Source: an uncultured bacterium
GTDB taxonomy: Bacteria; Patescibacteriota; Patescibacteriia; UBA1558; GWA2-36-10
Assembly (NCBI GenBank): GCA_937870675.1
Contig: CALMZN010000020.1
Location: 1 to 39,675, forward strand
DNA: 39,675 nt
Reading direction: 5' to 3'
Part shown: positions 264-39,675 of the stretch, piece after piece
Layout of the letters: every line of letters starts with the position of its first letter
How positions within the stretch are numbered: position 1 is the stretch's first letter
Notes under the pieces: model-generated
What the model saw: only the letters and a program-made list of their open reading frames with translations
Told to the model about the DNA's origin: nothing
Databases searched by the model: none
Program-made: the position numbers and the translations under genes

Positions 264-977
264 TTATCTAAACTTTGTTTGTTTCTCTCGCCACTCTTTG
301 ATCAATTTATGATTACCGGACAGCAAAACTTTCGGCACTTTCAAATTCATAAATTTATCTGGCCTTGTATATTGTGGATATTCAACATTAAATTTTTTTG
401 CCTTCTTATCATAAACTCCAAAAGATTCGTCAGCCACTGATTCCTCTTTGCCCACCACACCTTTGACTAGACGAGAGACACTATCTACCACGCAGGCCAC
501 AGCCAGCTCGCCACCAGTCAGCACAAAATTGCCTAAAGAAATTTTTTCATCTATAAATTTATCAATGCGGGCATCAATGGCTTCATAGTGCCCAGCAATC
601 AAAATCAGACGATCATATTTAGCTAATTGCTTTACTTTATTTTGATCCAAAGTCGCGCCGCGGGGCGTCAATAAAATCACCCGCGTTTTCTTATTCTTTA
701 CTTTACCGCCCAAAGGGCGACCGCCCTTTGGGCGGTTTTTTAATTTTGGATAAATTTTTTTCAAAGTTTTATAAACCGGTTCTATTTTTATAACCATACC
801 AGGGCCCCCGCCATAAGGAGTATCATCAACTGTTTTTCTTTTATTAGTGGCAGCTTGACGGATGTCATGCGTGCTGATATCAATCAATTTTTTATCGCGC
901 GCTCTTTTCAAAATTGAAGAGTCAAAATAGCTGTCTAAAATATTTGGGAAAATTGTCAGGATGTCAAATTTTTTCAT
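264..977 (-). CDS. trmD: tRNA (guanine-N1)-methyltransferase TrmD
   Basis: MKKFDILTIFPNILDSYFDSSILKRA..., DDTPYGGGPGMV, LIAGHYEAIDARI, SLGNFVLTGGELA motifs of TrmD. Confidence 0.96.
   Translation of the reverse strand: MKKFDILTIFPNILDSYFDSSILKRARDKKLIDISTHDIRQAATNKRKTVDDTPYGGGPGMVIKIEPVYKTLKKIYPKLKNRPKGGRPLGGKVKNKKTRVILLTPRGATLDQNKVKQLAKYDRLILIAGHYEAIDARIDKFIDEKISLGNFVLTGGELAVACVVDSVSRLVKGVVGKEESVADESFGVYDKKAKKFNVEYPQYTRPDKFMNLKVPKVLLSGNHKLIKEWREKQTKFR
705..736. repeat. Palindromic repeat element copy 1, inside trmD
   Basis: CCGCCCAAAGGGCG-AC-CGCCCTTTGGGCGG; perfect 14-15 bp inverted arms; same 30-mer at 17909-17938. Confidence 0.9.
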
Positions 978-15452: not shown

Positions 15453-17957
15453 TTATTTTTTCTTTTTTAGCTTAGTGGCCAACACATAAAAAATACTTAT
15501 TACCAAAAATCCCAGCAAGATAAACTTTAACATCTTTTTGCTTTGCGAATATCCTTGATTGGCCTCCACGGCACTAGTGCTATTAGTGCTTGTTGAAATT
15601 TTTTCGCCCAAAACTTTTTGCTCCATTTGTAAATCATTTTTATCAAAAACATCCAAGCGCACTACTTTTTCATCAAATTGTAATAAGCCACTGGCAATGA
15701 CTTCAGTACCTTTATCTAATTTTAAATCCTTGGTGTCAAACTTTAAACTCAAGCGCAAATTATATTCTTGGTCAACATCATCGGCTAAATAAATATTTTT
15801 GCCATTTTTTTTGACCACTACTCCGCGCGCCATCACTAATTGCCCATTATATTCTTCATTAAGATCAGCACTATCTATAATCTCTGGTTTAATTATTTCC
15901 TGTTCGCTGTCTAAAATACTTATTTCCTGATCGCTGACAATTTTTACTCTGGGCCAAGGATCAACTCTGGTGATTTTGCCTGACAAATAAATTGTGTCGC
16001 CTCTTTTGTATTTGGCAAAATCTAAAGCGCCGTAGGCCTCAAGCAAACGATTTTCATAATCTAATAAATATAGTATTTTATTATTCTGACCCCAAACCGT
16101 GGCTGTAATATTTCTATTCTCTCCTTTTTTATATTCCAAGTTTTCACCAGCCGCCTGCAGAGTATTTACAATGTTTGCTTGCCCAGGACTCGGACTTTCG
16201 CTGACAAACCATTCGTTGTTGGCTAGGTCCCAAGCATAGGACTGGCTTTCGGGAATTTTTTCATATTTTACTTCTTGCCAGACCTCATTCAATGGCGTGA
16301 GCAGGCGCACGCTGTCTGTAGTGTTGTTCAAAGTAATTTGACTAGTATTTCTATCAAGCACCAAAAAACTTCCAGCCGAAATAATTGTACTAGTAGCAAA
16401 AACATACGGCTTACTGCCACCCTCTTCATCGTCTAATTGCCAGCCAAGCAAATCAATGTTTTTGACGCTAGCGTTGTATAGTTCTACCCACTCAGCATCA
16501 TCACTGCCCACTGGATTTGGTAAAACTTCAGTGATCAACAAATCCTCTGTTCTAAAATCTATGGGCTTAACATCGACCAACTTCAAGTCAATCACTTTAT
16601 TTTCCACCACAATATTTTTGGTGACTTCGTTGCTTAGCCCAGCCAAATCAGTGACTTTTAATTTAACCAAATAATTACCGGGCTTTTCGTAAACGTGATT
16701 TTCTTTGGCTTCGTCGCCATTTTGATTATCACCAAAATCCCAAAAATATTTTAACTCCCCTTCTTCGGGATCAAGCGACTCGCTACTTGAAAAAATTATT
16801 TTTGTATTAGCAAAAAATTTATCGCCTTCAATTTTTAGCATTGCTTGCGGCGCTTGATTCTCTGGCAAGACATTGGCTTGGCCGGGTGTGGGACTTGGTG
16901 TCCAAACCAATGACCCATTTATCAAGGCAAAAGTTTTGCCCTCTGGCGCCGAAGCATCATAAACTGCGCTGTCCAACAAATTATTGTCGGGCGAATACAC
17001 CTTCACGCTATCGCCACCAGTATTATTCAAAGATATTTTTGTCTGATTTTTATAAAGCACCAAATACGAGTTTCCCGCCAAAAGCAAACCCTGCCCAATA
17101 GTATATTGTCCGGCCGAATTGTCCTGCACCTTGAAGCCAGACAGATCAACTGTGTTTTGTCCTTGATTAAATAATTCTATCCATTCAGCGTCGTCACTGC
17201 CCACTGGATTGGGCAACAACTCGGATATTTTTATTTGCGCCCAATAATTAGTCGACGCTCTGGTGCCACTACTAACCGGCGCTTCGGAAGCTGGCGTCTC
17301 CGGCTCCTCGTCAGCCGGTGGATCGTCATCGCCACCGCCATCATCTGGTGGCAATGGTGGCCAGTCCGCTTCTGGGCTTTTCACTGCGCCCGGAGTGCCA
17401 CCCAACACAGAACTCTCCTGCCAGTTACTCACTACGCTTTCTTGCGTTAAATTTATTTTTTCCAATGTTTTGCCATTACCACTTGCGCCCCAAGTAGAAT
17501 CATAAACAGCGCTAATACCTTGAGTTTGGCCACCATCAAAACTCAAAGCAATGGTGCTACTAGAATTACCCAAACTCATGACTGTATCAAAAATTGTAAA
17601 GGCAAACCCCGGATGTTCAGTCAAAAAATTCTGCGCGTCAGAGGCAATGATAAAATATTCACTCACGGCAATGGTGCTGGTGCCATTGACCAAATTCAAA
17701 ATATGATTTGAACCATCAAAAAAACGCCAAGTATCAGCGCCTGCCCCAGTCAAAACTTCTATGTTTTCTGAACTGCCATTGTAGACCTCAATCCACTCAC
17801 GACCACTATCTGCCCCATCCAAATCGTACATGATTTCCGAAATCACCAAATCGCTGTTAGCCGCCTGAATGGCCTGCGGGCAAATCAAAACAAATATTAA
17901 AATAGTGACCGCCCAAAGGGCGACCGCCCTTTGGGCGGAAATCGCTTTTCTTTTCAT
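15453..17957 (-). CDS. Lamin-tail-domain (LTD) surface protein with PKD domain and C-terminal TM anchor
   Basis: Three LTD-like segments (LVISEIMYDLDGADSGREWIEVYN; ISELLPNPVGSDDAEWIELFN; ITEVLPNPVGSDDAEWVELYN), PKD YFWDFGDNQNG, C-terminal TM + KKKK. Confidence 0.85.
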   Translation of the reverse strand: MKRKAISAQRAVALWAVTILIFVLICPQAIQAANSDLVISEIMYDLDGADSGREWIEVYNGSSENIEVLTGAGADTWRFFDGSNHILNLVNGTSTIAVSEYFIIASDAQNFLTEHPGFAFTIFDTVMSLGNSSSTIALSFDGGQTQGISAVYDSTWGASGNGKTLEKINLTQESVVSNWQESSVLGGTPGAVKSPEADWPPLPPDDGGGDDDPPADEEPETPASEAPVSSGTRASTNYWAQIKISELLPNPVGSDDAEWIELFNQGQNTVDLSGFKVQDNSAGQYTIGQGLLLAGNSYLVLYKNQTKISLNNTGGDSVKVYSPDNNLLDSAVYDASAPEGKTFALINGSLVWTPSPTPGQANVLPENQAPQAMLKIEGDKFFANTKIIFSSSESLDPEEGELKYFWDFGDNQNGDEAKENHVYEKPGNYLVKLKVTDLAGLSNEVTKNIVVENKVIDLKLVDVKPIDFRTEDLLITEVLPNPVGSDDAEWVELYNASVKNIDLLGWQLDDEEGGSKPYVFATSTIISAGSFLVLDRNTSQITLNNTTDSVRLLTPLNEVWQEVKYEKIPESQSYAWDLANNEWFVSESPSPGQANIVNTLQAAGENLEYKKGENRNITATVWGQNNKILYLLDYENRLLEAYGALDFAKYKRGDTIYLSGKITRVDPWPRVKIVSDQEISILDSEQEIIKPEIIDSADLNEEYNGQLVMARGVVVKKNGKNIYLADDVDQEYNLRLSLKFDTKDLKLDKGTEVIASGLLQFDEKVVRLDVFDKNDLQMEQKVLGEKISTSTNSTSAVEANQGYSQSKKMLKFILLGFLVISIFYVLATKLKKKK
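17908..17939. repeat. Palindromic repeat element copy 2, inside the LTD-protein signal peptide
   Basis: Same 30-mer CCGCCCAAAGGGCGACCGCCCTTTGGGCGG as in trmD. Confidence 0.92.
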
Positions 17958-22962: not shown

Positions 22963-23046
22963 GTGTGGTGATAAAAAACCACCGACCCCTAACCCCTCCC
23001 GACCTCCCCTTGACAGGGGAGGACTATTTAAGCCCCTTTGTTGTCT

Positions 23047-23074
23047 CGCCCAAAGGGCAACCACCCTCTGGGTG
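23047..23074. repeat. Degenerate copy 3 of the palindromic element, intergenic
   Basis: CGCCCAAAGGGCaACCaCCCTcTGGGtG, 4 differences in 28 from copies 1 and 2. Confidence 0.65.
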
Positions 23075-23133
23075 AAAAGGGAGTTTGGGGGATTTAGAAA
23101 AAAGAGGAATAAGCCCCCTTGTCAAAGGGGGTT

Positions 23134-23153
23134 CCTGCCTGCCGGCAGGCAGG
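23134..23153. repeat. Perfect 20-bp palindrome in repeat-rich intergenic region
   Basis: CCTGCCTGCCGGCAGGCAGG. Confidence 0.8.
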
Positions 23154-23186
23154 TGGGGGATTAAAAAAACCTCACCCCTCAGCTAT

Positions 23187-26892: not shown

Positions 26893-27665
26893 GCACCGGC
26901 GGTGGAATTGAAGCCGGCATCAACGTAGGTAATTTCGCCGGTAATGCCTGAGGCCAGGTCGGAGAGCATGAAGGCGGCGGCGTTGCCGACTTCTTCAATC
27001 GTCACGTTGCGGCGCAACGGCGCATTCTTGGCGACGATGTCGAGTTTCTCACCGAAGTTGGCGATGCCGCTGGCGGCCAGCGTCTTGATCGGGCCGGCTG
27101 ATATGGCATTGACGCGGATGCCCTTGGGTCCAAGGCTCTGCGCCATGTAGTACACGCTGGATTCAAGGCTGGCTTTAGCCAGGCCCATGACGTTGTAGTT
27201 GGGAATGGAGCGGTTGGCGCCCAGATACGACAGTGTAAGCAGTGCAGCCTGACGGCCTGCCATCATCGGTAACGCGGCCTTGGCCAGCGCGGCAAAGCTG
27301 TAGGAACTGATGTCGTGCGCGATGCGGAAGTTTTCACGGGTTACCGAGGAGAGAAAATCGCCGGCCAGCGCATCCTTCGGCACGAAGGCAATCGAGTGCA
27401 CCAGGCCATCGAGTCCATCCCAGTGTTTGCCGAGTTCGGCAAACACAGCATCGATTTGTTCGTCGCTGCCGACATCGCAGGGGAATACCAGGCTGGAACC
27501 AAATTCCTGGGCAAATTCCGTGACGCGATCCTTGATGCGATCGCCCTGATAGGTGAAGGCAAGTTCGGCACCTTCGCGCCTGCATGCTTCAGCGATGCCA
27601 TATGCGATCGAACGGTTGGAGATGACGCCGGTGATGAGCAAACGCTTGCCTGCAAGAAATCCCAT
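26883..27665 (-). CDS. fabI: Enoyl-[acyl-carrier-protein] reductase [NADH]
   Basis: [43 protein letters not shown]...[45 protein letters not shown]. Confidence 0.96.
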
Positions 27666-27739
27666 GATGGTCTCGAATGGTTGAGAATGACGCGATTATA
27701 ACGGCTGACGTTGACCACGGGCTTGGGTACACTTGCGGC

Positions 27740-29902
27740 ATGACACGGATCGGGGCGTTTTTATTCAGGACAGGTCTGCTGGGGCTGGGCTTGAGCCTGA
27801 TGGCAAGCTGCTCCGATCGCCTGAACACTCCCTATCCCGACAGTGAGACAGGCGCCAATGTGCTTTACAGCGCATTTTCCGAGCGTCCCAAGCATCTCGA
27901 CCCGGCGCGTTCCTACAGTTCGAACGAAGTCGAGTTCACAGGCCAGATCTACGAGCCGCCGCTGCAGTACCATTTTCTCAAGCGCCCCTACACGCTGATT
28001 CCTCTGACCGCCGAAGCCGTGCCCAGGCCGCGGTATGTCGACGCCGCCGGCAACGCACTGCCGGACGATGCGCCAGCAGCATCGATCGCAGAGAGCGTGT
28101 ACGAAATCCGGATTCGCCCCGGCATCCGCTACCAGCCGCATCCGGCGTTTGCGCGGGATGAAGCGGGGCGTTATCGTTATCATGCGCTCCCTGCATCGGA
28201 GATCGCCGGAAAAACCCGTATTCGTGATTTCGGGCACAGCGGCACCCGGGAATTGGTCGCTGCCGATTACGTGTACCAGATCAAGCGGTTGGCCAATCCC
28301 CGGCTCAGCTCGCCGATTTTTGGTTTGATGAGCGAGCATATCGTCGGCCTTAAGGCGCTGGGTGAAACGCTTGAAAAAGCAGCCAAAGCTGATCCCGTTG
28401 CGGCGCTAAAGCTCGACGACTTTCGGCTTGACGGGGCCGAAGTGGTCGATCGCCATACCTACCGCATTCGCATCAAGGGCAAATATCCGCAGTTCATCTA
28501 CTGGCTGGCGATGCCGTTCTTTGCGCCCATTCCATGGGAAGCCGAGGTGTTTTACGCACAGCCCGGGATGGCGGATAGGAATCTCACTCTCGACTGGCAG
28601 CCGGTCGGCACCGGCCCGTATTATCTGGCTGAGAACGATCCCAACCGCCGCATGGTGCTGAGGAAAAATCCGCACTTCCACGGCGAGACCTATCCGGCGG
28701 AAGGCAGTGCAGAGGACCGGCGGGACGGGCTGCTGGCGGACGCTGGCAAGCCGCTGCCGTTCGTGGACGAAGCGGTATTCAGCCTGGAAAAGGAAACCAT
28801 TCCCTACTGGAGCAAGTTTTTACAGGGCTATTACGATAGTTCCGGCATCAGTTCAGACAGCTTCGACCAAGCCGTGCAGTTCACCTCCGGCGGCAATCCG
28901 CAACTCACCGACAGCATGCGCGATCAGGACATCCATCTCATCACGACGGTGGCAGCTTCGCTCTGGTATGTTGGATTCAACATGCTCGACCCTGTGGTGG
29001 GGGGGGGGGGCGAGGACCGCCGGAAGCTTCGACAGGCGCTCTCCATCGCCTTCGACTACGACGAATTCATTTCGATTTTCCTGAATGGCCGCGGCATCCC
29101 GGCACAAGGGCCAATCCCGCCCGGGCTGTTCGGTTATGTCGAAGGCGAGGCGGGGTTGAATGCCTATGTGTACGAAGCGCACGACGGCCAGATTCGGCGC
29201 CGATCCATCGAAACGGCCAAGAAACTGCTGGCCGAGGCGGGTTATCCGAATGGACGCAATGTGAAAACGGGCGAACCGCTGGTGCTGTATTTCGACACCA
29301 TGGCGAGTGGACCCGATGCCAAGTCACGGCTCGACTGGATGAAGAAGCAGCTCGACAAGCTTAACGTGCAGCTGGTGGTTCGTGGCACCGACTACAATCG
29401 CTTCCAGGACAAGATCCGCAAGGGCAACGCACAACTGTTCGAGTGGGGCTGGAACGCCGACTACCCTGACCCGGAGAATTTCCTCTTCCTGCTGTACGGT
29501 CCGCACAAGAAGGTCGTCAGCGGCGGCGAGAATGCGGCCAACTACGACAACCCGGAATTCAACCGCCTGTTCGAGCGCATGAAGGACATGGATAACGGCC
29601 CTGGACGCCAGCAGGTGATCGACGCCATGCTGGAGATCGTGCGCCGCGATGCGCCGTGGATCTTCGCCTACTACCCCAAGTCCTTCGGCCTGCGCCACGG
29701 CTGGGTGCACAACGTCAAGCCCAACCTGATGGCGAATAACACACTCAAGTACCGGCGTATCGATCCTGCGCTGCGCGAGACCAGGCGTGCCGAATGGAAC
29801 AAGCCGGTGCTGTGGCCGATCGGACTGCTGCTTGCCGGATTGGCCGCGGTGATCGCCCCAGCGGTGATCGCGTGGCGGCGGCACGAGAGGAAAACCGCCT
29901 GA
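27740..29902 (+). CDS. Extracellular solute-binding protein family 5 (oligopeptide ABC transporter, YejA-like), lipoprotein
   Basis: Lipobox-like LSLMASCS; DPARSYSSNEVEFTGQIYEPPLQYHFLKRPY; start chosen 21 codons into the ORF-track entry. Confidence 0.88.
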   Translation: MTRIGAFLFRTGLLGLGLSLMASCSDRLNTPYPDSETGANVLYSAFSERPKHLDPARSYSSNEVEFTGQIYEPPLQYHFLKRPYTLIPLTAEAVPRPRYVDAAGNALPDDAPAASIAESVYEIRIRPGIRYQPHPAFARDEAGRYRYHALPASEIAGKTRIRDFGHSGTRELVAADYVYQIKRLANPRLSSPIFGLMSEHIVGLKALGETLEKAAKADPVAALKLDDFRLDGAEVVDRHTYRIRIKGKYPQFIYWLAMPFFAPIPWEAEVFYAQPGMADRNLTLDWQPVGTGPYYLAENDPNRRMVLRKNPHFHGETYPAEGSAEDRRDGLLADAGKPLPFVDEAVFSLEKETIPYWSKFLQGYYDSSGISSDSFDQAVQFTSGGNPQLTDSMRDQDIHLITTVAASLWYVGFNMLDPVVGGGGEDRRKLRQALSIAFDYDEFISIFLNGRGIPAQGPIPPGLFGYVEGEAGLNAYVYEAHDGQIRRRSIETAKKLLAEAGYPNGRNVKTGEPLVLYFDTMASGPDAKSRLDWMKKQLDKLNVQLVVRGTDYNRFQDKIRKGNAQLFEWGWNADYPDPENFLFLLYGPHKKVVSGGENAANYDNPEFNRLFERMKDMDNGPGRQQVIDAMLEIVRRDAPWIFAYYPKSFGLRHGWVHNVKPNLMANNTLKYRRIDPALRETRRAEWNKPVLWPIGLLLAGLAAVIAPAVIAWRRHERKTA

Positions 29903-30879
29903 TGCTGGCCTATATCCTGCGCCGCCTGCTCTATGCCATCCCGATCCTGATCGGGGTGAACCTGCTGACGTTTGCGCTGTTCTTCGTCGTCAACACGCCG
30001 GACGACATGGCGCGGCTGCAGCTAGGCGCCAAGCACGTGACGCCTGAGGCGATCGAGCGCTGGAAGGTCGAGCACGGCTACGACAAGCCGCTGCTGCTGA
30101 ACGCCGAGGCGAGTGGCAGTTCGCAATTTACTGACACGATCTTCTTCAAGCACTCGGCCGCCATGTTCGTCTTCGAATTTGGCAAAGGTGACGACGGGCG
30201 CGACATTGGCAACGAAATCCGCACACGCATGGGGCCGAGCCTGGCGATCGCGCTGCCGGTGTTTGTCATCGGATTGCTGGCCAATATCAGCTTCGCCCTG
30301 TTGATGGTGTTTTTCCGCACGAGCTATCTCGACCTGTGGGGCGTGGTGCTGTGCGTGGTGCTGATGTCGATCTCGGGGCTGTTCTACATCATCGCCGGGC
30401 AGTATTTCATCGCCAAGCTTTGGAATCTGTTGCCGATTTCGGGCTTCGCCGGCGGCATCGACGGCCTGAGGTTCATCCTGCTGCCGGTTTTGGTCAGTGT
30501 GGTGGCCGGTATCGGCAGCGGGTCACGCTGGTATCGGACCATCTTCCTTGAGGAAATCGGCAAGGACTATGTGCGCACCGCTCGCGCCAAAGGCCTGAGC
30601 GAAGTACGCGTGCTGTTCCGTCACGTGCTGAAGAACGGCATGATTCCTATCCTTACCGGCGCGGTGGTGGTGCTGCCGCTGTTGTTCATGGGCAGCCTCA
30701 TCACCGAGTCCTTCTTCGGCATTCCCGGGCTCGGCAGCTACACCATCGACGCGATCCAGGCGCAGGACTTCGCCGTGGTGCGCGCGATGGTGTTTCTCGG
30801 ATCCTTCCTCTACATCGTCGGCCTTATCCTCACCGACGTTTCCTATTCCTTGGTCGATCCGCGGGTGCGGCTGCAATGA
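29902..30879 (+). CDS. ABC transporter permease (YejB-like)
   Basis: MLAYILRRLLYAIPILIGVNLLTFALFFVVNTPDDMAR...EEIGKDYVRTARAKGLSEVRVLFRHVLKN; overlaps the upstream stop. Confidence 0.93.
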   Translation: MLAYILRRLLYAIPILIGVNLLTFALFFVVNTPDDMARLQLGAKHVTPEAIERWKVEHGYDKPLLLNAEASGSSQFTDTIFFKHSAAMFVFEFGKGDDGRDIGNEIRTRMGPSLAIALPVFVIGLLANISFALLMVFFRTSYLDLWGVVLCVVLMSISGLFYIIAGQYFIAKLWNLLPISGFAGGIDGLRFILLPVLVSVVAGIGSGSRWYRTIFLEEIGKDYVRTARAKGLSEVRVLFRHVLKNGMIPILTGAVVVLPLLFMGSLITESFFGIPGLGSYTIDAIQAQDFAVVRAMVFLGSFLYIVGLILTDVSYSLVDPRVRLQ

Positions 30880-32285
30880 ATAGCATCCAGCCCGTCATCC
30901 TGTGGACCGATGCACTGATTTTCGCACTGCTGGCAGCGGTGCTGGCCCTGGTGTGGCTCATCCGACGCCAGGAGCATCTGCTGGCGCCATGGCGAGTGGT
31001 GGCACAGCGGCCGATGGCTATGGGCTCGGCGCTGGTGCTCGGGGTATTCGTGGTCATTGGCCTTCTCGATTCGCTGCATTACCGCGAGCGGTTGGCCGAC
31101 AGCCCGGCCGACGCACCACAATATTCAGTCGAGGTGCTGTCTTTATTCGACGCGCTACTGAGTGAACTGCGTGCCCGCCCGGAAAAGACCTATTCCGCAC
31201 CGCTGGCGATGCATCTGTATGCCAAGGAGTTCGTCGAACGCGACGGCGCGACCGTGCGCGACTACCCGCGCCTGCAGTTCGGCGGTGCGCACCTGCAACA
31301 CGCGGACGCGCGCCTGCCCGACATTGCCCGGCGCACGCTTGACGGTGCCATGCAGGGCGCACTGGCGGGTCTGCTACTGTTTGCCGGGCTGGCCGGGTGG
31401 CAGGCGCGACGCAGGCAGATGACGCCCGGTGGATGGCTGGCAACCTGGAGCAGGGGGGATCTCGACTGGCCGGGACGGACGGTCGTCCTCGTCGTGGCGG
31501 GCATGCTGATGCTGACAGGGGTCATCGTGCAGCTGGCGTCTGGCTATCACGTGCTGGGTACGGATAAAGTGGGGCAGGACGTGCTCTACATCAGCCTCAA
31601 GAGCATCCGCACTGGCCTGGTGATCGGCACGCTCACCACCTTGGTCACGCTGCCGCTTGCGATCGGGTTCGGCATTGCTGCCGGCTATTTTCGCGGCTGG
31701 GTGGACGACGTCATCCAGTACATCTACACCGTGCTCAACTCCATCCCTGGCGTGCTGCTGATCGCCGCGGCCGTACTTATCGTGCAAGTGTATATCGAAT
31801 CCAATCCGGAACAATTCGATACCGCTGCCGCGCGTGCCGACATCCGCCTGCTGGCGCTCTGTCTGATCATGGGCGTGACCAGTTGGACGGGGTTGGCCAG
31901 ACTGCTGCGGGGTGAATCGCTCAAGCTGCGCACGCTTGATTACGTCGAAGCGGCACGCGCCTTTGGTGTGTCGAACACGCGCATCATCAGTCGCCACATC
32001 TTTCCCAACGTGTTTCACCTTGTGCTGATTGCCATCGTGCTGGATTTTTCCGGCCTGGTGCTGGCCGAAGCGGTGCTGTCCTACGTCGGCGTCGGCGTCG
32101 ATCCCTCGATGTACAGCTGGGGCAACATGATCAACGGCGCGCGGCTCGAACTGGCGCGCGAGCCTGTCGTCTGGTGGCAGCTTGGGGCAGCGTTCGCCTT
32201 TATGTTCACCCTGGTGCTGGCCGCCAACCTGTTTGCCGACAGCGTGCGCGACGCCTTCGACCCGCGCCTGGGGGGGCGTCGATGA
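30876..32285 (+). CDS. ABC transporter permease (YejE-like)
   Basis: GTDKVGQDVLYISLKSIRTGLVIG...LRGESLKLRTLDYVEAARAFGVSNTRIISRHIFPN. Confidence 0.93.
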   Translation: MNSIQPVILWTDALIFALLAAVLALVWLIRRQEHLLAPWRVVAQRPMAMGSALVLGVFVVIGLLDSLHYRERLADSPADAPQYSVEVLSLFDALLSELRARPEKTYSAPLAMHLYAKEFVERDGATVRDYPRLQFGGAHLQHADARLPDIARRTLDGAMQGALAGLLLFAGLAGWQARRRQMTPGGWLATWSRGDLDWPGRTVVLVVAGMLMLTGVIVQLASGYHVLGTDKVGQDVLYISLKSIRTGLVIGTLTTLVTLPLAIGFGIAAGYFRGWVDDVIQYIYTVLNSIPGVLLIAAAVLIVQVYIESNPEQFDTAAARADIRLLALCLIMGVTSWTGLARLLRGESLKLRTLDYVEAARAFGVSNTRIISRHIFPNVFHLVLIAIVLDFSGLVLAEAVLSYVGVGVDPSMYSWGNMINGARLELAREPVVWWQLGAAFAFMFTLVLAANLFADSVRDAFDPRLGGRR

Positions 32286-34264
32286 AGCCCCTGTTCGAGG
32301 TGCGCGATCTTGTTACCGGTTTCGGCCCGGTGCGCGTGGTCGATGGCGTGTCGTTCCGGGTCGCGGCAGGCGAAACCTATGCTCTGCTGGGCGAATCGGG
32401 CTGCGGAAAGTCGATCACCGCGCTGTCGCTGATGCGGCTGCTGCCGGATGGCGGCCGGGTGGTTTCGGGCAGCGTGCAACTCGGCGAAACCGACGTTCTG
32501 GCCTTGCCCGAACGCGACATGCGGCGCGTGCGCGGCGGACAGATGGCGATGATCTTCCAGGAGCCGATGCTGGCCTTGAACCCGGTTATCAAGGTCGGTG
32601 AACAGATCGGCGAAGCGCTGGCGCTGCACCAGGGGCTGGCGGGGCAGGCTGCACGCGATGCCGCGCGTGGGCTGCTCGATGCGGTGGGCGTGCCGGACGC
32701 GGTGCGCCGGCTCGACAGCTATCCGTTCGAACTCTCGGGCGGCCTGCGCCAGCGGATGATGATTGCAATGGCGCTGGCCGGCCGGCCGCAACTGCTGATC
32801 GCCGACGAGCCGACCACCGCGCTCGACGTGACCATCCAGGCGCAGGTGCTCGACGTGCTGCGCAGACTCAAGGCCGAGCAGCGGATGGGCATGCTGCTGA
32901 TCACGCATGACCTTGGCGTGGTGGCCGAAAACGCCGACCGCGTGGGGGTGATGTATGCCGGAGAACTGGTGGAGGAGGGAATGCGCGATGCGTTCTTCTC
33001 CGCGCCGCAACACCCCTACAGCCGCATGCTGTTCGAGGCGCTACCGCACACTGGCGACGGTGGACGGCTAACCACGATTCCCGGCCAGGTTCCGAAACTC
33101 GACGGGGCAACGCGCGGCTGCCGCTTTGCGCCGCGCTGCCCGTTCGCGATTGCACGCTGCCGCGCTGAATCGCCGGACTGGCAGGAGCTTAACGATCAGC
33201 GGGTGCGCTGCCACCTGGCGGGTGCCTTGCCTGCACGCCAAGAGCGCGAGCTCACCGCACATTCGGTAAAGCAAGCTGGGCAACAGCTGCTGCAGGTGGA
33301 CGGCCTCAAGGTGCATTTTCCGATCCGGCGTGGCCTGATCCAGCGCACGGTGGGCCATGTGCGCGCGGTCGACGGCGTGTCTCTGGACATCCAGGCGGGC
33401 CGCACGCTGGCGCTGGTGGGCGAATCGGGCTGCGGCAAGACCACCGTGGGCAAGGCACTGCTGCGGCTGATCGAGCCGACCGCGGGCAGCATCGTGCTGG
33501 GCGGCGAGCGCATTACCGCGAAGCATGCCTCTATCCTGCGACGGCAGGCGCAGATGGTATTCCAGGATCCGTTTAGCTCACTCAATCCGCGCATGCGGGT
33601 GGCGGACATTCTGCTCGAAGGCATGGACGCACTGAATGTTGGCGCGGGTAGCGACCGCCGCGACGCGGTGGCGCGTCTGCTGCATCAGGTCGGGCTGCCG
33701 GACGATGCCGGGGGCCGCTATCCGCATGCATTCTCCGGCGGGCAGCGGCAGCGCATCGCGATCGCGCGGGCGCTGGCGGTGTCGCCCCAGCTGGTGATCT
33801 GCGACGAGCCAACCAGCGCACTCGACGTCTCGGTGCAGGCGCAGATCCTGAATCTGCTGAAGGATCTGCAGGACAACCTGGGGCTGGCCTACCTTTTCAT
33901 CACCCACAACCTTGCGGTGGTTGATTATCTTGCGCACGAGGTGGCGGTGATGTACCTCGGGCGCATCGTCGAACACGGCGCCGCCACCGACGTGCTGCGT
34001 GCGCCACGCCATCCCTACACGCAGGCACTGGTGAGTGCGGTGCCGCGCATCGAGCCTCACGACGGCGCAGGCATCATCCGGCTGGCGGGCGACCAGCCCT
34101 CGCCGCTGAATCCGCCAGACGGCTGCCACTTCAACCCGCGCTGTCCGTACGCGAGTGAGGTGTGCCGGAAAACCTACCCCGAGCAGACCGAACTGAGGAA
34201 CGGGCATTGGGTGCGCTGCCACTGGGTTGCGGGCCAAGGTTTTTCCGCAGGTCGTGTGGATTGA
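32282..34264 (+). CDS. ABC transporter ATP-binding protein with two NBDs (YejF-like)
   Basis: Two Walker A ([18 protein letters not shown]), two Walker B ([24 protein letters not shown]), oligopeptide C-terminal motif; ATG 36 codons inside the ORF-track start. Confidence 0.94.
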
Positions 34265-34426
34265 ACCTGATAACAGCAGTTGACCGCTCATCACCCTTGC
34301 AAACGCCGCATGAATACAAGATTGGGTTCCTTCAATGCCGTTCACCGGGTGGGTGAGTCCGCTACACGCCCGGTGACACGTCTGCTCGTGCGCCTGCCTT
34401 TGTGCCCGCACGGAATAGGCTGGATT

Positions 34427-34450
34427 GGCAAAGCGGCAAAGCGGCAAAGC
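34427..34450. repeat. Short tandem repeat (GGCAAAGC)x3
   Basis: ggcaaagcggcaaagcggcaaagcggcg. Confidence 0.8.
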
Positions 34451-34776
34451 GGCGACGACTCCGCTCTCGCGGCTTCTTGCGGATCCCGGACCCACTGCGC
34501 CGTTGCTTTGCGGCAGACACCCGATCAGACGCGCCCTCGGGCGCATCCAACTGCGGTTTCTAGGTTGAACGCCGACAAACCCAGCAGTAATTTCTGGATG
34601 GGTAACGGCATCCTGGGTGGCGGCCATGCTGATGCTGTTCTTCATGGGGCCGCTATCGAACGCGACGGGCATCCTGGCAAGCGCGCCGTGGATCTTGCTT
34701 TCCGCCGTGGTCATGGCGCGTGTGATGTCGGACTGGCGTGGTGAACCACCTGAGCCTGATTACCAGCTTTCCTGTC

Positions 34777-36120
34777 TCAAGGTTTCCGGACGACGACAGT
34801 CTGGCCTGCGCGGATCATGCCGCTGTTCCGGATGGCAGGATTCCACGCCTTGATATCCGCGAGGCTGATGTCGAAACGCTGCGCGATGCTAAACAGCGTG
34901 TCGCCGCGCCGCACTTCATGCCGGGTCAGCGTTCGCGCTGACAGGTCGTTGTGTGCCTCCGCGGGGCCTTTGACCGGAACGAGTATGGTCTGCGCGCGCA
35001 CCAGTTTGCCCTTTTTCAAATCCAGCTGGTTGTGTTCTTCGAGGCGGGCAAGGCTGACGTTGAAGCGCCTGGCAATGGCTGCGGCGCGCTCGCCTTTTTG
35101 CGCCGTGTAGGGTTGCCAGGTGTCCCAGTTTCCGGTTTCCAGGTTGCGCTGGAACTTGTCCGACTTGTCGACGGGAACCAGCAGACTCACCGGCGTATCG
35201 GAGCGGATCAGCTTGCGTGGGAAGGCGGCATTCAGTGCAGCGAATTCATCGCTGCTCATGTTCGCCAGCCGCGCAGCGGAGTGGAGATCCATGTTGGCCT
35301 GGACGGTGACCTGGCTGAAATAAGGTTGGTTCGGCAATGGCTCGATGGCAACGTTGTAACGCTCGGGCGCGTGGATCAAGGTTCTCAGCGCCAGCAGCTT
35401 GGGGACGTAATGTCGGGTTTCGTTCGGCAAGGACAGGCTGGCGTAGTCGGTAGGCAGTCCCTGCTGGACATTGTTCTGGATGGCACGAGTGACGCAGCCC
35501 TCGCCGCAGTTGTAGGCTGCTAATGCCAGTTGCCAGTCGCCGAAGTCCAGATACAGCTTGCCCAGGTAGTCGAGCGCGGCACTTGTGGCGGCCGTGAAGT
35601 CTCGCCGCCCGTCGTACCAGGTGTCCTGCCTCAGTCCGTAGTGGCGTCCGGTGGAGGGAATGAATTGCCAGATGCCGGAAGCCGCAGCAGACGAAAGCGC
35701 GGCCGGGTTGAACGCGCTCTCGACCATCGGCAGCAGGGCGATTTCCATCGGCATCGCACGCCGGTGGAGTTCCTCGACGATATGGTAGAGGTAAGGGCGC
35801 GAACGCTCAGCCATGCGACGCACGTTGTCCGGCCGGGCTGCAAACCAGGATTCGTGGACGGCAACCAGCGGGTTTTGCATGGCCATACCGTCGATGCGGA
35901 AACCATCACGAATGCGTTGCCAGACATCGTCGTGGCTGGCTTCTGCCGCAGTATCGCTTTCGATGCCGACGTCATCGCTGCCCCACTCCAGCGTCTGGAT
36001 ACTGGCGTGGGGTGCTTCGGCAAACGCAGGGTGGCAGAAGAAAACCGCCAGCAAGGCCAAGCTGAACAGGCTTGATCGGGGGGCGGCCGGTTTGATGCGG
36101 CCTAATTTGACTCCGGGCAA
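34777..36120 (-). CDS. mltD: Membrane-bound lytic murein transglycosylase D with LysM domains
   Basis: ALLPMVESAFNPAALSSAAASGIWQFIPSTGRHYGL...LALAAYNCGEGCV; C-terminal LysM HEVRRGDTLFSIAQRFDISLADIKAWN. Confidence 0.94.
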   Translation of the reverse strand: MPGVKLGRIKPAAPRSSLFSLALLAVFFCHPAFAEAPHASIQTLEWGSDDVGIESDTAAEASHDDVWQRIRDGFRIDGMAMQNPLVAVHESWFAARPDNVRRMAERSRPYLYHIVEELHRRAMPMEIALLPMVESAFNPAALSSAAASGIWQFIPSTGRHYGLRQDTWYDGRRDFTAATSAALDYLGKLYLDFGDWQLALAAYNCGEGCVTRAIQNNVQQGLPTDYASLSLPNETRHYVPKLLALRTLIHAPERYNVAIEPLPNQPYFSQVTVQANMDLHSAARLANMSSDEFAALNAAFPRKLIRSDTPVSLLVPVDKSDKFQRNLETGNWDTWQPYTAQKGERAAAIARRFNVSLARLEEHNQLDLKKGKLVRAQTILVPVKGPAEAHNDLSARTLTRHEVRRGDTLFSIAQRFDISLADIKAWNPAIRNSGMIRAGQTVVVRKP

Positions 36121-36173
36121 GTCGGTCTCCCGTACTCAACAAGGTCTCATCCTAAGTTCCTGGGCGAATATGG

Positions 36174-36944
36174 TCAACCATCCCAGGCATCCTTGGCGGC
36201 GCGGATCGCCCCGAACACTTCAGCTGGGCCGGGATGCGGACATTTCAGAAAGCGGGTGGCAAAAGCCGTCATGTCAGGTGTGTGGAAGCGCAGGAACGGA
36301 TTGGTGGCCTTTTCCAGCGCCAGGGTCGAGGGCAGGGTGGGACAGTTGCGCGCACGCAGGGCGCGGTCGGTTCGCTCGCGTTCCTGGAGTGCGGGGTTAT
36401 CCCTGTCGATGGTCTTGGCAAAATCGATGTTGCTGAGGGTGTATTCATGTGCACAGCAGACCCGGGTCGCATCGGGCAACGCTAAAATGGCGTCGAGGCT
36501 GGCTGCCATTATCGCGGGTGTGCCTTCGAACAACTTACCGCAACCGCAGCCGAATACAGTATCGCCGCAGAACAGGCAGCCGTGGCCTATGTAACTGAGA
36601 TGATCGAGCGTGTGTCCCGGTGTGGCCAGCACGTCGAGGTGCAGGCCGAGCTCAAGGAAGTCGACCGAATCGCCGCCATAAAGCGGGTGGGTAACCGCAG
36701 GGATGAGCGGGTTGTCCGGGGCGTAGACGGCACATTCGTAGCGTTGACGCAGCACCGCGTTCCCGCCAGTATGGTCGCGGTGGTGGTGGGTGATCAGCAC
36801 CGCGGTCAAATCGAGTTGATGTGCGTCGAGAAAGGCGATCAGCGGCACGGGATCGCCAGGGTCTACCGCCACGGCGGCGCGGTCGTCGTGCCACACCCAG
36901 ATGTAGTTGTCTTCGAACGCGGGCAGGGGAATGAGTGTCAACAT
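36174..36944 (-). CDS. gloB: Hydroxyacylglutathione hydrolase (glyoxalase II)
   Basis: LIPLPAFEDNYIWVW, LITHHHRDHTGGN, TPGHTLDHLSYIG, CAHEYTLSNIDFA. Confidence 0.95.
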   Translation of the reverse strand: MLTLIPLPAFEDNYIWVWHDDRAAVAVDPGDPVPLIAFLDAHQLDLTAVLITHHHRDHTGGNAVLRQRYECAVYAPDNPLIPAVTHPLYGGDSVDFLELGLHLDVLATPGHTLDHLSYIGHGCLFCGDTVFGCGCGKLFEGTPAIMAASLDAILALPDATRVCCAHEYTLSNIDFAKTIDRDNPALQERERTDRALRARNCPTLPSTLALEKATNPFLRFHTPDMTAFATRFLKCPHPGPAEVFGAIRAAKDAWDG

Positions 36945-36973
36945 GATGGAGCTACCAGACAGAGAGAGCCGCT

Positions 36974-37711
36974 ATGTTATCCAAGCTGAATAACGAATGG
37001 TTTGAAACGCCGCTGGGACAGCACCTGCTGTTTCGCGAGCAGCGCTATTTCGACGATGCGGTGTCGGATGTGTTCGGCTTCAATGCCGTACAGGTCGGCC
37101 TGCCGCAACTCGATTTCCTGCGCAACAGCCGCATTCCGCTGCGTGTGACCTGTGCGGTTGAAGCATCGTCCCAGGTGCGGGCCGATGCCATGTTCCTGCC
37201 GTTCGAGAGCCAGTCGCTCGATCTGCTGCTGTTGCCGCACGTGCTGGAATTCAGTGCCAACCCGCACCAGGTGCTGCGCGAGGCCGAGCGGGTGCTGCGC
37301 CCGGAAGGCCGGCTAATGCTGGCTGGCTTCAATCCGCGCAGCCTGTGGGGGCTGGCGCGCGTATTGCAGGGCGGCGAGCGCGGTTATCCGTGGAACGGCA
37401 GCTTCCTGAATATTTCGCGGGTGAAGGACTGGATGGTATTGCTGGGACTCGAGGTGGCGGCCGGCAGCATGTGCTGCTACAGGCCGCCGATCAACCGCGA
37501 GCACTGGCTGCGTCGACTGCGCTTCATGGAGCCCGCAGGGGACCGTTGGTGGGCCATGGGCGGCGGCGTGTATTTCCTTCAGGCGGTGAAGCGGGTGCAG
37601 GGCATGAATATTATTTTGCCGCAATGGAAAACACCGGTGGCGCAGCGTTTATTATCGCCGGCAGCCAAGGTGATCAATCTGAAACAGTATCGGGTGCGTC
37701 GTGATCGCTGA
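36974..37711 (+). CDS. Class I SAM-dependent methyltransferase
   Basis: [53 protein letters not shown]. Confidence 0.88.
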
Positions 37712-38150
37712 CACCATATACATCTATAGTGATGGCGCCTGCAAGGGCAACCCCGGCCCGGGCGGCTGGGGCGCCTTGCTGGTGGCGCACGGACATCGCA
37801 AGGAAATCAGCGGCGGCGAAGCGAACACCACCAACAACCGCATGGAAATGACTGCGGTGATCCGTGCGCTGGAATCGCTGAAGCGCCCGTCCACGGTCGA
37901 GGTCCACACCGATTCTCAATATGTGCAGAAAGGCATCAGCGAATGGATGGCCGGCTGGAAACGGCGCAACTGGCACACCGCCGACGGCAAGCCGGTCAAG
38001 AACCAGGATCTGTGGCTGCAACTGGATGCACTGAGCCAGCTGCACACCATCCAGTGGAAATGGGTAAGAGGCCATGCGGGCCACCCGGAAAATGAACGCG
38101 CCGACCAACTGGCCAACCTAGGTGTGCTTCAGGCACAACAACACTTATAA
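37701..38150 (+). CDS. rnhA: Ribonuclease HI
   Basis: [64 protein letters not shown]. Confidence 0.97.
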
Positions 38151-38155
38151 CAACC

Positions 38156-38860
38156 ATGCGACAAATCATTCTCGATACAGAAACCACCGGCCTTGACCAC
38201 AGCCAGGGGCATCGCATCATCGAGGTGGCTGCGGTTGAAATGGTCAATCGTCGGCTCACTGGCAACCATCTGCACCGCTATGTCAACCCCGACCGCGATA
38301 TCGACGCCGGTGCGATGCAGGTGCACGGCATCACCCCGGAATTTCTCCAGGACAAGCCGCGTTTTGCCGATATCGCCCGGGAGTTCGTCGACTACATCCA
38401 GGGCGCCGAGCTCATCATTCACAATGCACCGTTCGATGTCGGCTTCCTCAACATGGAGCTACGCCTGCTCGACATGGCGCCGCTGACGACTTGGTGCGAC
38501 GGCGTGACTGACACCCTGGCGATGGCCAAGGCGCTGCATCCCGGCCAACGCAACAACCTGGACGCACTGTGCAAACGTTATGGCGTGGATAACGCGGCAC
38601 GCACCCTGCACGGCGCCCTGCTCGACTGCGAATTGCTGGCTGCGGTATATCTGGCGCTTACGCGCGGACAGGAAAGTCTTTCGATTGGGCTGGAAATCCG
38701 CAGTGTGCAGGCCGATCAGGCTGCAGCGCGCTTGCGCCCCAGGCCCGTGCTGTCTCAGGCATCCGCCGAGGAACTGGATGCGCACGCCAGCCTGCTCGAG
38801 GCGATCGCCAGTGAGAGCAAGGGCGCCTGCCTGTGGGGCGCGGAGCAGGAAGCGGTTTGA
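38156..38860 (+). CDS. dnaQ: DNA polymerase III epsilon subunit
   Basis: MRQIILDTETTGLDHSQGHRIIEVAAVEMVNRRLTGNHLHRYVNPDR...HNAPFDVGFLNMEL. Confidence 0.96.
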   Translation: MRQIILDTETTGLDHSQGHRIIEVAAVEMVNRRLTGNHLHRYVNPDRDIDAGAMQVHGITPEFLQDKPRFADIAREFVDYIQGAELIIHNAPFDVGFLNMELRLLDMAPLTTWCDGVTDTLAMAKALHPGQRNNLDALCKRYGVDNAARTLHGALLDCELLAAVYLALTRGQESLSIGLEIRSVQADQAAARLRPRPVLSQASAEELDAHASLLEAIASESKGACLWGAEQEAV

Positions 38861-38868
38861 CCGCTTGC

Positions 38869-39675
38869 ATGCCGGGCAGGTGGGCCACGCTTCAGCGCAT
38901 CGCGCGTTGGGGGCTGGTGTGCGTGTGTCTGATCCTGGTGTCGGCGCAGGCGGTCGCCGCACGGGTGGTGGTGGTGCTGAGCAATGATTCGGCGCCGTAC
39001 CAGGAGGTCTATCAGGTCGTCCGTACCTTGCTGGACGATAGTCCCCATGAACTCAGCCGTGTGTATGCCGATAAACTGACCGCATCCGCACTGGGGGGGG
39101 CCAGCCTGGTTGTTGCCGTGGGCGTGCGTGCGGGGGACGCAGTGGCGTTGCTTGCGGACCGTCCTCCGGTGCTGGCGGTGCTGGTGCCGCGCGCATGGTA
39201 TGTCAGGGACGGGCGTTCAAAGCTGGATGGCAGCGGCTATGCGTCAGCCATCTATCTCGATCAACCCTTCGAGCGTCAGGCGAGGCTTATAAACCTCGCC
39301 TTTCCCGACGTGCGTAGGGTGGGTGTGCTGTTGAGCAACGATCAGGGTGATCTGGTGGGTGAACTGGACGCAGCCCTGCGCAGGCAGCAAATCGATCTGC
39401 TGCCAGGCATGCTGACGAGCGATGAACGGCTGATCGGTACGCTCGAAAACGTCTTGTCGGGAGCCGACTTGCTGCTGGCCGTGGCGGACCCGAAGGTGTT
39501 TAACCGCAACACGGCGCAAAGCCTTTTTCTGACAACCTATCGCTACCGCGTTCCGGTTGTGGGCTATTCACAGTCGCTGACACGGGCCGGTGCGCTGTTG
39601 TCGCTGCATTCCAGCCCGGCGCAAATCGGCCGCCAAACCGCCGAATGGGTGCTCGGCGCCCTCCAGGGCGCATCG
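38869..39675 (+). CDS. Exported ABC-substrate-binding-like protein, partial at window edge
   Basis: Open frame to window end: MPGRWATLQRIARWGLVCVCLILVSAQAVAARVVVVLSNDSAPYQEVYQVVRTLL...; signal peptide; not in the ORF track because it runs off the end. Confidence 0.65.
   Translation, partial: MPGRWATLQRIARWGLVCVCLILVSAQAVAARVVVVLSNDSAPYQEVYQVVRTLLDDSPHELSRVYADKLTASALGGASLVVAVGVRAGDAVALLADRPPVLAVLVPRAWYVRDGRSKLDGSGYASAIYLDQPFERQARLINLAFPDVRRVGVLLSNDQGDLVGELDAALRRQQIDLLPGMLTSDERLIGTLENVLSGADLLLAVADPKVFNRNTAQSLFLTTYRYRVPVVGYSQSLTRAGALLSLHSSPAQIGRQTAEWVLGALQGAS

Follow-up and report, generated by a model that had tools for sequence, protein, structure and literature searches.

The secretion signal of a lamin tail domain (LTD) surface protein is interrupted near its front by a 30-nt element consisting of two abutting 15-nt stem-loops, an identical copy of which lies in-frame in trmD and is read there in a different frame. 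We consider it very likely that this element represents the insertion of a small nonautonomous repeat that is dispersed through Patescibacteria genomes and kept where it is tolerated. Positions are those of the window, the whole 39,675-nt stretch of DNA that was analyzed, from the genome here called G000. This genome and most of the relatives named below are metagenome assemblies, and insertion was deduced by comparing sequences. The features of the window that bear on the element are as follows.

264..977, minus strand: trmD, tRNA (guanine-N1)-methyltransferase with the in-frame insert (237 aa; PF01746, E value 4e-48; NCBIfam TrmD)
706..735, minus strand: 30-nt element in trmD, identical to the LTD copy and read as RPKGGRPLGG; a variant form occupies this loop in G001
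15453..17957, minus strand: surface protein gene, 834 aa, with a predicted signal peptide, three LTD (lamin tail) domains, and a PKD domain
17859..17908, minus strand: host-derived hydrophobic core and end of the signal peptide, TC ACT ATT TTA... (TILIFVLICPQAIQAA); KAI-FTILI matches G010 once the insert is subtracted
17909..17938, minus strand: 30-nt double-hairpin element in the signal-peptide codons of the LTD gene, read as (S)AQRAVALWA(V); it splits the conserved Phe codon of MKRKAIF
17939..17957, minus strand: first part of the signal peptide, host-derived and conserved in orthologs, ATG AAA AGA AAA GCG ATT T
23046..23075, plus strand: third double-hairpin copy, diverged and intergenic (TCGCCCAAAGGGCAACCACCCTCTGGGTGA), found by sequence match

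The copies within the window were initially compared to each other. All 31 bases of ACCGCCCAAAGGGCGACCGCCCTTTGGGCGG were the same at positions 705 to 735 and 17908 to 17938, confirming the claim of the original prediction that one element occurs at both sites; the position it gave for the second site, 17908 to 17939, was right except for its end, which was one base too long. The repeat itself measures exactly 30 nt, and a diverged third copy at 23045 to 23075 had 77% identity. Both trmD and the LTD gene are on the minus strand, and the same strand of the repeat is read in two different frames, yielding SAQRAVALWAV in the LTD protein and RPKGGRPLGG in TrmD, as had been proposed. Three double hairpins of this kind were found in the window compared to 0.36 in shuffled sequence, one of the three being unrelated noise, and the same pattern read backwards as a control had no matches in the G000 genome. 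Every other copy found in this genome differed from the trmD and LTD pair by at least 2 bases, which suggests that these two copies have a recent shared source. Given that the trmD insert is common to the genus, the LTD copy probably arose later and may have been derived from the trmD copy or from a recent source common to both. A search of the window against Rfam found tRNAs only. Other palindromic repeats, including CCTGCCTGCCGGCAGGCAGG, are clustered beside the third copy at 23000 to 23170, and the copy at G000:C2 (locus L011) has a similar flanking arrangement.

Orthologs of the LTD protein, which ends in a hydrophobic segment followed by lysines, are present in most of the family. The peptide MKRKAISAQRAVALWAVTILIFVLICPQAIQAA, which had been reported to contain AQRAVALWAV, is the exact N terminus of the minus-strand open reading frame at 15453 to 17957. 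When exactly 30 nt are removed, the G000 gene gives MKRKAIFTILIFVLI... (MKRKAI-F-TILIFVLI), which agrees with the repeat-free orthologs of G010 (MRKAIFTILITLL, MRKAI-F-TILITLL) and G003 (MKRKAIFLLL). Much of the family retains the start M(K/R)RKAI, and the insert interrupts the codon of the conserved phenylalanine that follows. These alignments show that the LTD copy is an insertion, as judged from the sequences, that is absent from repeat-free orthologs. Two alternatives raised with the original prediction were not borne out: none of the repeat-free orthologs carries AQRAVALWAV, and a downstream translation start is unlikely because the upstream codons, ATGAAAAGAAAAGCGATT, are identical at the DNA level in the repeat-free G003 and G014 and the stretch from the repeat to the hydrophobic core offers no suitable start. 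The predicted features of a signal peptide are all present, with a positively charged start (MKRKAI...), a core (ILIFVLI), and small residues at the putative cleavage site (AIQAA). The proposal that the element forms part of this signal peptide is supported, but the secretion signal itself is not made by the element. The strongest hydrophobic stretch, ILIFVLI, is host sequence that is there with or without the insert, so the insert extends the signal rather than building it, contributing one arginine and a mildly hydrophobic stretch. The mean hydropathy of the insert is +0.70 in the LTD frame versus -1.50 in the TrmD frame.

For trmD, orthologs from 18 other genomes of the family and from further genomes of the order were aligned. 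The peptide RPKG(G/D)RPLGG was found only in G000 and in G001, which belongs to the same genus, while in most other orthologs KK(I/V)Y was joined directly to KNK.TR, demonstrating at the level of the alignment that the trmD copy is likewise an insertion that most orthologs lack. At the place of the G001 double hairpin, G005 carries just one 15-nt hairpin, TCCCGCTACGCGGGA, and the site holds another insert in G004. In the AlphaFold model the insert lies in a coil between a helix (residues 65 to 75) and a strand (residues 98 to 109), with pLDDT values below 50 at residues 86 to 93, in line with the basic loop that had been predicted, and the two best solved TrmD homologs have a gap in this region. 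The center of the trmD insert (loci L066 and L065) is GACC in G001 and GGTC in G000, and a G004 copy elsewhere has GGCC; from the sequences, either two transitions or an in-place inversion may account for the difference between G001 and G000.

The structure of the unit was determined by aligning copies found by sequence alone. It is 30 nt long with sharp edges, TCGCCC-NNN-GGGCGA followed by CCGCCC-NNN-GGGCGG (in general form, [T/C]CGCCC-NNN-GGGCG[A/G] twice), so that two hairpins with 6-bp stems and 3-nt loops abut with no spacer. In the set of copies selected solely by sequence, the arms of the 15-nt hairpins showed 11 two-sided changes compared to 3.0 in shuffled sets, and none of 500 shuffles reached as high a count. 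No such excess was measured for the single long palindrome, which was therefore rejected as the evolving unit even though folding of perfect copies as single-stranded DNA favors it (-17 kcal/mol). The element is thus palindromic, as had been claimed, but evolves as two 15-nt hairpins and not as one palindrome. The wider family has the form [TCNNCC-ANA-GGNNGA][YCNNCC-TNT-GGNNGR], with stem positions 3 and 4 free provided that they pair, although this set was partly selected for pairing, which biases its counts of pairs upward. A mechanical scan of 711 kb for abutting pairs of 15-nt hairpins found 76 distinct places versus 2 in shuffled sequence, a difference that demonstrates specificity and not density since the loci were partly chosen for holding the element. 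With a covariance model, the family was detected in 102 of 240 genomes belonging to the class, which we take to be ABY1 (an order-level relative is named Candidatus Komeilibacteria), and in 50 of 287 genomes sampled across the phylum Patescibacteria. Most copies are intergenic, and both orientations occur. When named genomes were scanned for the exact pattern, matches in GC-rich Bradyrhizobium, Actinobacteria, and others were set aside, their flanks being unrelated and several of them resembling coding or tandem repeats. The portions of the literature on palindromic repeats in Patescibacteria/CPR covered by a limited search held no description of the element.

Because 30 nt equals 10 codons, the reading frame is preserved wherever the element lands. 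The window copy and the consensus have no stop codon in any of the six frames; a stop can arise from unusual loop triplets. Copies survive in-frame in the conserved genes ileS, a UvrD-like helicase gene (two sites), ddl, queA, a pseudouridine synthase gene, dprA (two tandem units), a glycosyltransferase gene, pheT, recR, and polA, as well as in the C-terminal tails of rsmI and ybeY. Searches of Pfam and NCBIfam confirmed the hosts IleS, UvrD-like, Ddl, QueA, pseudouridine synthase, DprA, glycosyltransferase, PheT, RecR, YbeY, and PolA, and orthologs were compared for trmD, the LTD gene, the uvrD-like gene, ileS, and ddl. The net gain of ileS over its nearest ortholog was 8 codons rather than 10, indicating that this event was not a clean 30-nt insertion. 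At least three frames of the element are used in genes. The dominant peptide types are RPxG(D/G)RPxGG and PPxGWSPSGR, and the AQRAVALWA frame is rare in genes and the most hydrophobic (mean hydropathy +0.70; the other two frame kinds range from -1.4 to -1.8). Both cases that were analyzed closely have the element in tolerant places, a TrmD loop and the front of the LTD signal peptide. In dprA of G021 (L232, 901 to 975), two tandem double hairpins with a 45-nt period encode PPRGWSASGGKSDSMPPRGWSASGG in-frame.

We also scanned the N termini of the LTD orthologs, using a double-hairpin criterion that was fixed after the G000 copy had been seen. Double hairpins were present in G000, G007, G015, and G016, in all four at nucleotides 20 to 49 of the open reading frame and nowhere else, a position with a null probability of 1.5e-4 to 3.5e-4 per ortholog. 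The four inserts have different stems, and three of them are diverged or decayed. On the LTD tree the occupied genomes are scattered among unoccupied ones, requiring four changes, at least three of which are forced by well-supported branches; either several insertions or a single insertion that was precisely lost several times would explain this distribution. It is possible, though we would not favor it, that the element is site specific or drawn to hot spots and that the LTD signal peptide is a preferred point that was hit or precisely emptied several times. The shared position, the differing stems, and the scattered occupancy all point this way, as do the different inserts in the trmD loop of G000/G001, G004, and G005 and the six copies at an identical point of tRNA D-loop fragments. 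Conversely, decay has affected three of the four LTD inserts, which were recognized by a criterion set after the first had been seen, the tolerance of signal peptides for insertions would be enough alone to concentrate survivors there, and the common target sequence is only T-rich. The six tRNA-associated copies, in G008 and G024, are contained in truncated duplicates of tRNA 5' ends, at the precise junction of AGTT and GG in the D loop (L030 at 1263 to 1292, L216 at about 901, L125 at 1501, L138 at 1501 and 1829, and L241 at 901); in most cases an intact tRNA gene that shares the 5' sequence follows directly downstream.

The position common to the four lineages would also be expected if the element had been inserted once, in an ancestor of the family, its arms then drifting with compensating changes and most lineages losing it. 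We regard this as unlikely, since it requires repeated precise losses of 30 nt, the stems at the LTD site differ as much as those of unrelated copies do, and the LTD copy of G000 matches the trmD copy exactly, which would not be expected of an old one. Somewhat less probable still is an RNA-level element, such as a terminator, a processing signal, or a translation-control hairpin, kept by selection at each site. Its hairpins are strong, most copies are intergenic, and the LTD copy begins 20 nt after the gene start, where structure can affect translation, all of which would fit such a function; however, most orthologous sites have no copy, the element occurs in both orientations, and A.C mismatches outnumber G.U wobbles by 10 to 4 on the modeled strand of the sequence-chosen set, the opposite of what selection on RNA would leave.

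Insertion of a dispersed repeat, the reading we prefer, was further examined at the flanks of the copies. A T was present at position -2 in 54 of 71 copies and an A at position +2 also in 54 of 71. TA was found on both sides of 18 of the 71, and 2-nt direct repeats flanked 19, compared to 7.8 in shuffled sequence. TA did not flank both sides of either the LTD copy or the G000 trmD copy, and no target-site duplication beyond at most one T was found at the LTD site. Bursts of near-identical copies occur in G173, G228, and G356, often embedded in other palindromic repeats. Many intergenic copies lie within other repeats, and A+T-rich repeats of the AACTTT/AAAGTT type border many copies (L283 to L287 in G356, L004, L014, and L026), so that the mobile unit could exceed 30 nt in some lineages. 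Two candidate means of movement were rejected: a RAYT/Y1 transposase as the mover in G000, since PF01797 was not detected there or in most carriers of the family (it is present in G004, G015, and G025), and a phage vehicle, since no exact match to the element was found in IMG/VR and none in a phage collection. The element may spread by copying of its single-stranded hairpin form, probably through a transposase acting in trans or template switching during replication, and would prefer A/T-rich targets with T at -2, A at +2, and often TA on both sides. Purifying selection would remove insertions whose peptide is not tolerated, and the surviving frame would be set by the site, with RPxG[D/G]RPxGG in loops and AQRAVALWA in the signal peptide. 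More tentatively, and with the odds against it, the 30 nt may themselves be the transposable unit, with no tag or coding capacity and with preferred positions (LTD codon 7, the TrmD loop, and the D loop of tRNA fragments), the stems diversifying as the arms stay complementary because the hairpin is the template that is copied. If so, few known mobile elements would to our knowledge be as small, and the element would supply new peptide segments in a frame-neutral way.

The element was also compared with known systems. Among MITEs such as RUP, NEMIS, and Correia elements, RUP and NEMIS have TA targets. Like these MITEs, the element is nonautonomous. About one-quarter of its copies have TA on both sides. 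RUP and NEMIS are listed as MITEs, which are 70 to 300 bp long with terminal inverted repeats (PMC3733652), whereas the element has only 30 nt and TA duplication is not general. Fungal and sponge mitochondria contain double-hairpin and hairpin-forming elements and yeast mitochondria contain GC clusters, small repeats that sometimes lie in genes and are kept in the RNA (PMC2800124); these are organellar and, compared by form, are a structural parallel only. REPs and REPINs consist of two short, oppositely oriented hairpins that can fold either separately or together as one long hairpin, and some lie inside genes, including those for DNA repair, a tRNA synthetase, and a pseudouridine synthase (PMC3116915, PMC3733652). 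Here too, an ANA-loop hairpin followed by a TNT-loop hairpin forms an inverted pair. Unlike the GTAG/CGTC REPs, however, the hairpins abut with no unpaired tag (consensus TCGCCCANAGGGCGACCNCCCTNTGGGNGG, T at -2 and A at +2), and G000 has no detected Y1/RAYT gene. Rickettsia palindromic elements (RPEs) are found in-frame in unrelated housekeeping genes, where protein fold and function are presumed to accommodate them (PMC10969869, PMC3733652), and are about 150 bp long, each coding for a conserved peptide (PMC10969869). The family of the window element is likewise in-frame in unrelated conserved genes, but with 30 nt in place of the RPE length, sharp boundaries, variable stems, at least three frames, and a host in another phylum. 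The element thus acts like RPEs and REPINs yet belongs to neither, given its size and its lack of both a GTAG/CGTC tag and a RAYT.

Selfish repeats that add peptides are best known from Rickettsia, and the small genomes of Patescibacteria are usually considered streamlined; a much smaller peptide-adding repeat occurs across this phylum. As 30 is divisible by three and the usual sequence has no stop in any frame, one DNA element can give several peptides. The surviving peptide reports what each site tolerates, and in the LTD case the same bases end up within a secretion signal. Sites that differ between related genomes by one precise insertion offer a natural test of the insertion tolerance of essential enzymes and of the movement of a tiny hairpin.

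Coincidence or an assembly chimera joining repeats is scarcely credible as the origin of the copies, for although the assembly is metagenomic with 84 contigs and the window appears foreign in its right third, one continuous orthologous gene spans the flanks of each copy and the trmD insert is independently present in G001. Across positions 26900 to 39675, which hold no copy of the repeat, the G+C content rises from about 42% to 62%. The genes there encode an oligopeptide ABC transporter, an MltD-like lytic transglycosylase, and a glyoxalase II-like protein, and this part looks proteobacterial, probably reflecting a chimeric contig or contamination.
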